Source of the DNA: an uncultured bacterium
GTDB lineage: Bacteria; Desulfobacterota; Desulfobaccia; Desulfobaccales; 0-14-0-80-60-11
DNA length: 39,754 bases
NCBI GenBank assembly: GCA_937943575.1
Contig: CALEAV010000057.1
Location: 1-39,754 of the forward strand
Direction of reading: 5' to 3'
In this document: positions 1 to 34,883 of the stretch, in pieces
Numbering within the stretch: position 1 is the stretch's first letter
How the letters are laid out: each line of letters begins with the position of its first letter
Notes under the pieces: model-generated
The model's database searches: none
What the model saw: the letters and a program-made list of their open reading frames with translations, nothing else
What the model was told of the DNA's origin: nothing
Translations under genes and position numbers: made by a program

Positions 1-29
1 GATGATTTTAATCAGTTAGATGCTAATAT

Positions 30-54
30 ATAGCACCCCCAAAGGGGGTGCTAT
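30..54. repeat. Perfect 11-bp hairpin
   Basis: Arms ATAGCACCCCC (30-40) and GGGGGTGCTAT (44-54) are perfectly complementary around an AAA loop. No T tract follows on either strand, only A/T-rich sequence, so it could be a weak two-way terminator or a protein-binding palindrome. Confidence 0.6.
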
Positions 55-435
55 CCCTAATATTAAAAAGCATGCTATAAACATCATCCCAAGTTATATA
101 TATATTACTCACCAAGCCAGGATTCCATCTTTCTAAGCACCCACACCCCACCCCCTCGCCGCCCGGTGCTATCTGACCTGCGAACGCACGCCAGGCACCG
201 CCGGGCGCCGGGTGCCTCCATCCCGTCACCCCAAGCCAGATTTGCCCTCTCGCCTCACCAGACGCCTTACAATGCCTCTCTGCAGGCAAACGAATAAACC
301 CAAGGGTAGACAAAATCGTTCGTCTACGAGGCTCTCACGAGGTCTGAGTGGCATTCTGGAGGATGGGCTATGCTGCCACCTCCACCCATACCGGCTGGGG
401 GCCAACCCCAGACGGGAGGGACAGGCGTCGGCTGA

Positions 436-575
436 AATCGCCCGTCTGAGACGGAAAGCTCCCCCTCAATGACATATTTTCGAGGGGGAAAGCAAAACTA
501 AGGGTACCCTACAGGGGGTGGAGACATGATGCGAAAATATGCTTTTGAGGGGGAGGTTTCTCGGTCAGAGCACGG
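436..575. repeat. Large hairpin repeat, copy 1
   Basis: The inner arms at 458-482 and 532-556 are complementary over about 25 bases with few mismatches (CTCCCCCTCAA...CATATTTTCG against CGAAAATATG...TTGAGGGGGAG). Weaker pairing extends out to about 444 and 573. The centre holds a 10-bp palindrome AGGGTACCCT (501-510) inside the conserved stretch AAGGGTACCCTACAGGGGG. The outer ends (GAAATCGCCCGTCTGA at 435-449; GGTCAGAGCACG at 563-574) recur in copy 2 at 766-909. The inner arm sequences do not recur, although copy 2 also forms a long stem. This suggests a folded RNA or folded single-stranded DNA recognised by its ends, loop and shape. Confidence 0.7.
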
Positions 576-620
576 ATGACCAAATCCACCCCATGGGCAG
601 GGCAATTCCACCGCAGAGGG

Positions 621-649
621 TTGACAAACGAAAATTTTGGGAGTATATT
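621..649 (+). promoter_or_regulatory. Strong sigma-70 promoter of a small RNA unit
   Basis: A perfect -35 TTGACA (621-626), a 17-base spacer and a -10 TATATT (644-649) make a near-consensus sigma-70 promoter. Initiation is expected near 656. A terminator follows at 683-711, so the product should be a very short RNA. Confidence 0.65.
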
Positions 650-655
650 CATAAT

Positions 656-711
656 GCACCTCCATCGATCACCTATCTCAGCGCCCCGGTGGCAGCCGGG
701 GCTTCTTTTTT
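656..711 (+). ncRNA. Candidate small RNA of about 55 nt
   Basis: The unit is bounded by a near-consensus promoter (621-649) and an intrinsic terminator (683-711). The transcript would carry only about 27 unpaired bases ahead of the terminator hairpin. The one ATG inside (654-656) opens a frame that runs through the terminator, so a protein is unlikely. It sits between the two large hairpin repeats in a block without genes, which would fit an element-borne regulator or antisense RNA. I know no RNA family that it matches; the start is inferred from promoter spacing only. Confidence 0.45.
683..711 (+). terminator. Intrinsic terminator
   Basis: A 7-bp perfect stem GCCCCGG (683-689) / CCGGGGC (696-702) with a 6-base loop is followed directly by a T-rich tract (703-711). 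This is the classical form on the plus strand. Confidence 0.75.
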
Positions 712-765
712 CCATGTCCGGTCAAGATTCCAGGCATGCCCCAGATGGCAGGTACAGGGTATGTG

Positions 766-909
766 AAAATCGCCCGTCTGACCCCGAAAACCCCCTACTC
801 ACAGGCCCGATTTCGAAGAAAAAAATCGGACGAAGGGTACCCTACAGGGGGGATGACATTACATCAAAAATCCGTGCGTGAGTAGGGGGGTTTTGAGGTC
901 AGAACACGT
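766..909. repeat. Large hairpin repeat, copy 2
   Basis: Left arm 771-813 and right arm 868-908 pair over most of their length; for example AAAACCCCCTACTCAC pairs with GTGAGTAGGGGGGTTTT. The centre again carries AGGGTACCCT (834-843) followed by ACAGGGGGG. The outer ends GAAAATCGCCCGTCTGA and GAGGTCAGAACACG match copy 1 (436-575) closely. The inner stem sequence is unrelated to copy 1, so each copy has kept its pairing while changing its sequence. Confidence 0.7.
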
Positions 910-1072
910 TTCGCAATTAGAGAGTATGTTTTTTGGGGGGTATTCTGGCAGGATGGGTCATGTGTATGTGATGGCCGAGAGTAAAGGTGGGGGGAGTGGA
1001 ACGGGACTCCCGGCAACCGGAAGGCACCCCCCTCCCCCCACCCCAGGGAAATCAACCAGTTAGCTCCAATTT

Positions 1073-1096
1073 TAGGTGTCCATATAGGTGTCCATG
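1073..1096. repeat. Two tandem 12-bp repeats TAGGTGTCCAT(A/G)
   Basis: TAGGTGTCCATA (1073-1084) is followed immediately by TAGGTGTCCATG (1085-1096). Short direct repeats some 120-140 bp from a tRNA junction are what arm-type binding sites of tyrosine integrases look like. This function is inferred from position and form. Confidence 0.55.
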
Positions 1097-1118
1097 CGTC
1101 CGATAAATAGCCATAAAT

Positions 1119-1127
1119 TGGTATAAT
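1119..1127 (+). promoter_or_regulatory. Extended -10 promoter box
   Basis: TGGTATAAT is a perfect extended -10 element (TG-N-TATAAT). There is no clear -35 box and no gene downstream on this strand. It lies inside the 1059-1153 inverted repeat, so it may be a remnant or drive a short transcript towards the junction. Confidence 0.3.
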
Positions 1128-1213
1128 CTGATATGAAACCCTTTGGAGCTAACCTATTAGAAAATATAACTAAATATATCTTGGCATATATCCTGCTAAG
1201 TGCCCGAAATAGC

Positions 1214-1255
1214 ATTAGGAATCCGTTGCTCTGTCCATTTCTGAGCTACGGGGGC
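1214..1255 (-). pseudogene. 5' half of tRNA-Arg(CCU), cut in the anticodon loop
   Basis: Read on the minus strand from 1255, this is an acceptor strand GCCCCCG, TA at positions 8-9, and D stem GCTC/GAGC around a loop holding GG. Then come anticodon-stem strand ACGGA and loop TTCCTAA with anticodon CCT (1219-1217). The match ends after TTCCTAAT; the next bases do not complete the anticodon stem. No T arm and no CGGGGGC acceptor partner occur in the remaining 1.2 kb. The sequence to the right is chromosomal and the block to the left looks foreign. I therefore read this as an integration junction in the anticodon loop, with the 3' half displaced to the other end. A very long intron is the alternative. 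Confidence 0.7.
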
Positions 1256-1518
1256 AGCGAGGCATTTGGCGGAGGGGTGGGGTCCGGCACGGGGTGAGGT
1301 CTGGTCCCCCGCCCTTCTCTTCCTGCTTCCTTTACTCCGGGGGCCGGGGCGGGATTCCCGGCTTCCGGTTGGGCCCCTCCCTTCTCCCTGAGGCGTCAAG
1401 GAAATTATTCCCCATTGTTCGGCATGGCTGACATTATATGGGGAAGTGGGGAAGGCCGCAACTCCCGGGCCCACTCTCCGGTGGTTGTCTCGACGCCCCA
1501 GCGGGTTGCGGCCCCTTC

Positions 1519-2829
1519 TCAGGCCGGGTGGATGTGCTCCCCGGAAATCCCCCGGAAGGCGTTGCGGGTGTCCACAATCAGGCGGGCATGCCGGGCAATC
1601 CAGGGGTAGTCATAGGCGCTGTGATCGGTGACCAGGACCACGCAGTCATAGCTCGCCAGGGTGTCGGCGGTGAGGGGAACGGAGGCCAGATCCAGGTGGG
1701 GATAGTGGCGCATGCCCCGGCAGTGGGGGATGTGGGGGTCGTGGTAGTCCACCCAGGCCCCCCGCTGCAGGAGGAGGTCCAGGATCTTCACCCCCGGGGA
1801 TTCCCGGTTGTCGTCAATGTCCTTTTTGTAGGCAATCCCCAGGACCAGGATGCGGGCGCCCCTGAGGGCCCGGCCGGCGTTGTTGAGCACCTCCACGATG
1901 CGCTCCACCACGAAATAGGGCATGGAGGTGTTGACCTCGCCGGCCAGCTCGATGAAGCGGGTGGGGCAGTCATACTCCCTGGCCTTCCAGGTGAGGTAGA
2001 AGGGGTCGATGGGGATGCAATGCCCCCCCAGCCCCGGGCCGGGATAGAAGGCCTGGAACCCGAAGGGCTTGGTCCTGGCGGCTTCGATGACCTCAAAGAT
2101 GTCGATCCCCAGGCGCAGGCAGAGGACCTTGAGCTCGTTTACCAGGGCGATGTTCACCGCCCGGTAGATGTTCTCCAGGAGTTTGCTCATCTCCGCCGCC
2201 TTGGGGGAGGAGACGGGCACCACCCGCTCCACGATGCTCTCATACAGGGCCACCCCGTGTTCCAGGCAGGCGGGGGTGACGCCGCCCACCACCTTGGGGA
2301 TGTTCCTGACCCCGAAGGTGGGGTTGCCGGGGTCCTCCCGCTCCGGCGAGAAGATCAGGAAGAAGTCCCGGCCCACCGTGCCCCGGGCGGAGAGCAAAGG
2401 CAGCAGCACCTCCTCGGTGGTGCCGGGCCAGGTGGTGGACTCCAGGGAGACGAGCTGCCCCGGCCGCAACACCCGGGCGATGGCCTGGGTGGTGGCCTCC
2501 ACATAGCGCAGGTCCGGCTCCCGGTGCGGGGTGAGGGGGGTGGGCACGCAGATAAGGAGGGCGTCGGGCTCGTCAAGGCGGCTCAAATCATTGGTGGCGG
2601 CAAAGCGGGGGGTGGGGCCGGTGAGCCAGTCGGTGAGCCGATGGGCGGCAATGTGCCTGATGTAGGATTCCCCCCGGTTGAGCTTCTCCACCTTGGCGGG
2701 GTCGGTGTCAAAGCCGAGGACGCGAAACCCTTCCTCCAGAAAGCGCAGCACCAGGGGCAGGCCCACATAGCCCAGGCCGATGACCCCCACCAGGGCCTGG
2801 CGCTGGCGGAGTTTGTCCAGCAGAGTCAT
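1519..2829 (-). CDS. UDP-N-acetylglucosamine 6-dehydrogenase-type nucleotide-sugar dehydrogenase
   Basis: A cytosolic enzyme expected to oxidise C6 of a UDP-N-acetylhexosamine to the uronate with two NAD+, feeding O-antigen or capsule synthesis. The 436-residue protein opens with the NAD-binding motif [12 protein letters not shown]. It has the SPER motif of this group ([10 protein letters not shown]) and the catalytic cysteine in GGHCIPIDP (Cys271), followed by the C-terminal UDP-binding domain ([12 protein letters not shown]). The pattern is that of the WbpA/TviB branch rather than of Ugd, which is present separately at 5460. The start at 2829 is set by AAGGAG 8 bases upstream; an upstream in-frame extension is not supported. 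It is transcribed divergently from lptD. The exact sugar substrate cannot be fixed from sequence. Confidence 0.88.
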
Positions 2830-3087
2830 GCGCCGCTCCTTCAGATGAAATTTCCGGGAAAGGAGCCCGGAACCGAGGGCCCTCTCCTCGTTTCCGGCCT
2901 GTCCTCCCCCATCATTGACTGCGCTGCTGGCCGGCCCCAGGTCGGGGCTTCCCAGTTTGGGGAGGCCACGGCCCCGAAGGCAGAGACTACCACAAAGGGG
3001 CGGGGATTGCAAGGGGCCCGAAACCGGGAAAAAATGACCCCCTTTGGCCTTCCAGCCGGTCTCCGCCTCCGGCCAGGGGGAGACACC

Positions 3088-34616: not shown

Positions 34617-34883
34617 TGGCCGTGCTAGACGGGGAGCTAGCGGTGCCCTGTAACCCGAAAGCCGCTTGATGCGGGGTTGAACTCCCTCCCAGAGCCTCGC
34701 AGCGCCGCCTCGGGGGGCGGCCCGACGGGCGGATTGGACCCCACGCAACAGACGCCGGTGAACCCCGTCAGGTCCGGAAGGAAGCAGCGGTAAGCCGGGC
34801 CGGCTGTGTCGTGGCGGCGGCTAATCCTTCACCCCCGGGCCAAGTCCCGGGCGGTGGCGGAGGCGAAGGAGGGTGCACGGCCA
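34617..34883 (+). ncRNA. ffs: Long-form bacterial SRP RNA with Alu domain
   Basis: RNA scaffold of the signal recognition particle, binding Ffh through its S domain. The S-domain core GTCAGGTCCGGAAGGAAGCA (34769-34788) is unmistakable. The 5' part (CGTGCTAGACGGGGAGCTAG, then CGGTGCCCTGTAAC) follows the Alu-domain start of the Bacillus scRNA. The termini pair perfectly: TGGCCGTGC (34617-34625) with GCACGGCCA (34875-34883). At about 267 nt it is the long type (B. subtilis about 270 nt), not the 4.5S form. The ends are set by the terminal stem. Confidence 0.92.

Follow-up and report, generated by a model that had tools for sequence, protein, structure and literature searches.

The window, by which we mean the whole 39,754-nucleotide stretch of Desulfobaccales DNA analysed, starts at a contig end. 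Its bases 1 to 1213 belong to a small integrative element of the tyrosine-recombinase type, lodged in the anticodon loop of a tRNA-Arg(CCT) gene, and form the end distal to the integrase; this is the most secure result of the analysis. The assignment follows from: (i) the split tRNA gene; (ii) a drop in GC content, and (iii) an arm-type motif and an attachment core that are common to the window and a complete element of a related genome. The 5′ half of the tRNA gene, broken in the anticodon loop, is located on the reverse strand at 1214-1256, where it forms the junction with the host chromosome; the 3′ half was not found in this assembly. When the first 3.3 kb were searched in two congeners, convincing matches were obtained only from position 1214 rightwards, and the tRNA gene that is cut in the window is intact in both. 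At the junction the GC content falls from about 65% on the host side to about 50% on the element side. The integrase-proximal end lies outside the assembly, and bases 1-1213 contain no convincing protein gene and no open reading frame worth naming.

A double direct repeat, GGTGTCCATATAGGTGTCCA, located at 1075-1094 of the forward strand, is a candidate arm-type site for the integrase. Bases 1070-1106 match elements across the phylum, and the motif is present at both ends of the related integrative elements. At one end it adjoins intact tRNA genes, where the integrase genes have their 3′ end; at the other it precedes the tRNA fragments. An inverted repeat, GTTAGCTCCAA / TTGGAGCTAAC, flanks the double arm site at 1058-1156 and could serve as an accessory site of the excisionase or integrase. 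A perfect palindrome, AGCACCCCCAAAGGGGGTGCT, with flanking T/A, lies near the contig end at 32-53 and resembles a terminator that lacks its T-run.

The complete element just mentioned, of 6.3 kb, occupies the same tRNA-Arg(CCT) gene in genome G008 (tRNA sites at about 387-430 and 6884-6962 of L226, contig C35). There the intact tRNA adjoins the integrase, and the displaced 5′ half stands at the distal end together with GGATTCCTAATGCTAT, the core found at the junction of the window; its genes code for integrase, an excisionase-like protein, primase, RNase H and a virion protein. A second element, of 7.1 kb, is inserted in a tRNA-Cys gene of genome G021 (tRNA sites at 155-229 and about 7482-7527 of L225, contig C17), again with the intact tRNA beside the integrase; its far end carries a 45-base fragment from the 3′ part of the tRNA without a mismatch. 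As a group, the related elements encode integrase, excisionase-like proteins, Prim-Pol or primase, RNase H and a phage internal virion protein. A satellite-like, phage-derived nature is the best explanation for the element in the window.

The integrases are about 70% identical to each other and insert in different tRNA anticodon loops, in opposite senses. At tRNA-Cys and tRNA-Arg(ACG) the integrase adjoins the 3′ end of the intact tRNA, the displaced 3′ half being seen for tRNA-Cys, whereas at tRNA-Arg(CCT) it adjoins the 5′ end and the 5′ half is displaced. Because of its dyad symmetry, the anticodon stem may permit insertion in either orientation. Elsewhere in the genome of the window, what remains of an integrase gene, interrupted by an in-frame stop (about 221-670 of L300, contig C1), lies next to a tRNA-Arg(TCT) gene (48-124); a member of this element family probably inserted there long ago.

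Other accounts of the junction were rejected. A chimeric assembly is contradicted by the recurrence of the attachment core GGATTCCTAATGCTAT in G008. A group I intron in tRNA-Arg(CCT) is a known bacterial situation; here no Rfam match was obtained, and the arm site and the integrase of the relatives indicate an integrative element. Contig C30 of the same genome is not the missing remainder: its integrase, although the closest homologue, is part of a separate insertion, at tRNA-Arg(ACG) (1312-2565 of L299). The genomic islands, prophages and satellites that target tRNA genes with tyrosine integrases, as catalogued in Islander (PMC4383910), are alike in having a split tRNA gene with a tRNA fragment at one end. 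The intact tRNA beside the integrase at their other end and the arm-type repeats at both ends are matched in G008 and G021, while the window shows the distal end only. The element differs from them in that the 5′ half is the one displaced in tRNA-Arg(CCT), so the gene is regenerated from its 5′ side.

Within this element end, as its cargo or as cis-acting DNA, there are two repeat units of about 170 bases in the same orientation, at 406-575 and 739-909 of the forward strand, with a spacing of 333 bases. Each consists of a 5′ conserved box (CCCCAGACGGGAGGGACAGG at 406-425 and CCCCAGATGGCAGGTACAGG at 739-758) followed by a large hairpin, the outer arms of which were placed by an inverted-repeat search at 445-482 and 532-569 in the first unit and at 777-802 and 878-903 in the second. 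A sequence-only reading had set the limits of the copies at 436-575 and 766-909. The hairpins do lie there, but the homology begins about 30 bases to the left of each hairpin; the repeat units are therefore drawn to include the shared box, CCCCAGAYGGSAGGKACAGG, which is identical at 17 of 20 positions between the copies (P about 1e-7 for one placement).

Both hairpins are real, as that reading had held. Their inverted repeats give the top two scores of the whole 39.7-kb window (21 and 20), and both exceed every value obtained from 40 block shuffles of positions 1-3000 (mean maximum score 12, highest 16.5). In RNA folding both hairpins, on both strands, reach z values of −3.8 to −6.6 against dinucleotide shuffles, and in DNA folding −4.1 to −5.6; none of 200 dinucleotide shuffles folded as well. 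Folding strength is comparable on either strand, with no clear strand preference. The left arm of each copy can also form an alternative local hairpin, at 455-496 (−16.3 kcal/mol) and 800-830 (−6.3 kcal/mol), and a conserved hairpin further upstream, CAGAYGG...CCCGTCTG, is formed by copy 1 but is not the best fold in copy 2.

The conservation of centre and outer ends described from the sequence alone was likewise borne out. The 18-base centre, AGGGTACCCTACAGGGGG, located at 501-518 and 834-851 of the forward strand, is identical in both copies; it contains a 10-bp palindrome, AGGGTACCCT, near the symmetry axis of the large inverted repeat, and its position relative to that axis is the same in copy 2 as in copy 1. 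The outer 14 bases of the hairpins are invariant between copies, and the outer ends as a whole are nearly identical. The hairpin ends read CGTCTGA and TCAGARCACG, which confirms that the canonical integron attC core is absent. The inner arms had been said to differ completely. In fact the arms are homologous, 91 of 140 aligned bases being identical (65%), and strong divergence is confined to the inner arms beside the centre. Of the 24 pairs of the basal stem, 17 are unchanged between copies, four are altered on both sides, two are broken in copy 1, and one A-T pair has been inserted as a pair.

Despite this divergence the left and right arms still pair in each copy. The predicted duplex energies of the inner arms are −41.2 and −34.0 kcal/mol within copies versus −22.7 and −25.1 kcal/mol across copies; since the arms pair much better within than across copies, pairing was kept during divergence. 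Covariation exceeds what independent change would give by a modest margin (hypergeometric P 0.014), and the same level is reached by 30 of 500 shuffles. Coming from two sequences only, the paired changes are suggestive and not conclusive. In copy 1 the left inner arm contains the right-arm block GAGGGGGA once more, and copy 2 has AAAAATCGG as a mirror of AAAAATCCG in the right arm. Such partial extra copies of the right arm inside both left arms would fit templated copying.

Between the two hairpins, a sequence and pattern scan located a promoter and terminator unit at 621-711 of the forward strand. The promoter-like site, at 621-649, resembles the sigma-70 consensus (TTGACA, spacer of 17, TATATT; 11 of 12 positions), and within about 60 bases of it there is an intrinsic-terminator-like hairpin with a T-run, at 683-711. 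The unit would give a short RNA of about 55 bases (657-711). Shuffles contain at least as many promoter and terminator matches as the region does, and no promoter-like site in the region reads into either hairpin without an intervening terminator.

The search for further copies gave no third one. Exact and mismatched core patterns detected two copies only in the genome itself and none elsewhere in the genus or family. A covariance model built from both copies, the search that the sequence-only reading had recommended, yielded no additional copy in 22 family, 29 class and 395 phylum genomes; weak matches in four family genomes were rejected because they lacked the centre, had broken stems or were unrelated G/C-rich repeats. 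In viral contigs the candidates among the matches listed by pattern scans were rescored with the covariance model and all were rejected. Genome contigs of GTDB returned zero matches to the gapped pattern and to the 17-mer, and blastn against phage and plasmid collections found no hairpin homologue. A possible diverged third copy at 314-366 of the window was discarded, scoring only 5 bits. At the gathering score, Rfam matched neither hairpin, its only match in the window being the bacterial large SRP RNA (RF01854) at 34620-34880; at relaxed E-values the hairpins gave only chance miRNA-type matches, which are noise. The absence of further copies, named by the sequence-only reading as an outcome that would speak against it, is thus essentially what the genome, viral, phage and plasmid collections searched returned. 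It follows that the hairpins belong to one element, as a part of it that is rare or changes fast. A hairpin homologue is also absent from the related integrative elements, including the one of G008 in the same tRNA-Arg(CCT), so the hairpins are not a conserved part of the element family.

Taking these data together, we tentatively favour, as a possible rather than a probable explanation, that the hairpins are a cis-acting DNA site of the satellite-like element, in the form of paired hairpins that would be extruded or single-stranded. In this model the two 170-base repeats would constitute a duplicated quasi-palindromic non-coding module, serving for example in replication initiation, priming or packaging, and recognised by the primase or replication protein of the element itself. 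The ends and the centre would be contacted sequence-specifically, and the arms would matter mainly as a helix. A DNA site is preferred because both strands fold comparably, the centre palindrome lies at the dyad, no promoter-like site reads directly in and there is no open reading frame worth naming; a cis-acting role is preferred because ends and centre are conserved with the helix retained, and because the related elements encode primases. The lack of hairpin homologues in the related elements counts against it. The element is cut by the contig end, and its own replication genes lie outside the assembly.

The main rival, likewise possible and ranked behind the cis-acting site, is a tandemly duplicated quasi-palindrome, non-functional or selfish, the arms of which have been homogenised by template switching, giving paired changes without selection. 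Template switching between the arms of quasi-palindromes is reported to create and mend hairpin arms in this way (PMC8794818). The right-arm blocks copied into the left arms (GAGGGGGA, and AAAAATCGG with AAAAATCCG) would be footprints of such templated copying, and the modest covariation excess, together with the absence of a third copy and of conservation in the collections searched, points in the same direction. Constraint is nevertheless suggested by the invariance of the 18-base centre and the outer 14 bases at 65% overall identity, and a long stem has been kept in both copies despite the heavy inner divergence. With two copies only, selection and template switching are inseparable. The selection for shape asserted from the sequence alone is thus correct as regards the shape, which is retained; selection does not follow from two copies, since template switching yields the same changes (PMC8794818).

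Ranked third, and rather unlikely in our judgement, is a pair of structured non-coding RNAs or leaders with mutually exclusive hairpins that would regulate the integrated element. It would account for the strong RNA folds and for the alternative local hairpins of the left arms (455-496 and 800-830), and the promoter-terminator unit could supply a small RNA of the same circuit. It is opposed by the lack of an Rfam family even at permissive E-values, by folding without clear strand preference, by the lack of a promoter-like site directly into either hairpin and by the lack of a downstream gene in the window to regulate. Least likely by far are attC-like folded single-stranded recombination sites bounding a 333-base cassette with a small-RNA gene, akin to what had been suggested from the sequence. 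The same orientation of the copies, their conserved ends and variable paired arms, and the promoter-terminator unit between them are as expected for such sites, and integron attC sites are moreover foldable on one strand. The hairpins differ from these in having no RYYYAAC/GTTRRRY core, no array (two copies only) and a conserved centre in place of conserved extrahelical bases, and their homology runs 30 bases beyond the hairpin on one side, where a site-specific boundary predicts otherwise. The recombinase that had been sought fits the tRNA-targeting phage-type integrase of the related elements, acting at about 1213, 300 bases away; no integron integrase was identified in the part of the element present, which is cut by the contig end at position 1. 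Nor do the hairpins fit a palindromic miniature transposon (MITE): on the left the homology continues for about 30 bases beyond the hairpin, no target duplication is apparent by eye and there are no other copies. A palindrome of transposon type, ending in its terminal inverted repeats, would leave out the box CCCCAGAYGGSAGGKACAGG. There is no evidence for a new class of recombination site or of RNA.

For the cis-acting DNA site, the closest parallel is satellite phage P4, which has a duplicated cis replication region (crr). The two are alike in having two similar direct repeats, each longer than 100 bp, placed in non-coding DNA of a satellite-like element, with primases encoded by relatives of the element described here. 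The likeness is one of outline: a relation in sequence is not expected, in the window the repeats are large quasi-palindromes, and a replication role here is putative. That the hairpins represent an undescribed class, namely paired quasi-palindromic DNA sites of satellite-like integrative elements, in which a protein would read the invariant centre and ends while the arms change freely and keep pairing, seems to us improbable.

What is new is the corrected description of the hairpins and the identification of their genomic setting: a satellite-like element has entered a tRNA gene, and the hairpins mark its end. The lineage is sparsely sampled, and 29 genomes of its class were examined. Should the hairpins have a function, they would represent a new signal for origin, priming or packaging with freely evolving arms; if not, they illustrate cleanly how paired changes can arise with no selection for shape. 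In both cases they caution against treating a hairpin as a proven structured RNA on the strength of two copies.
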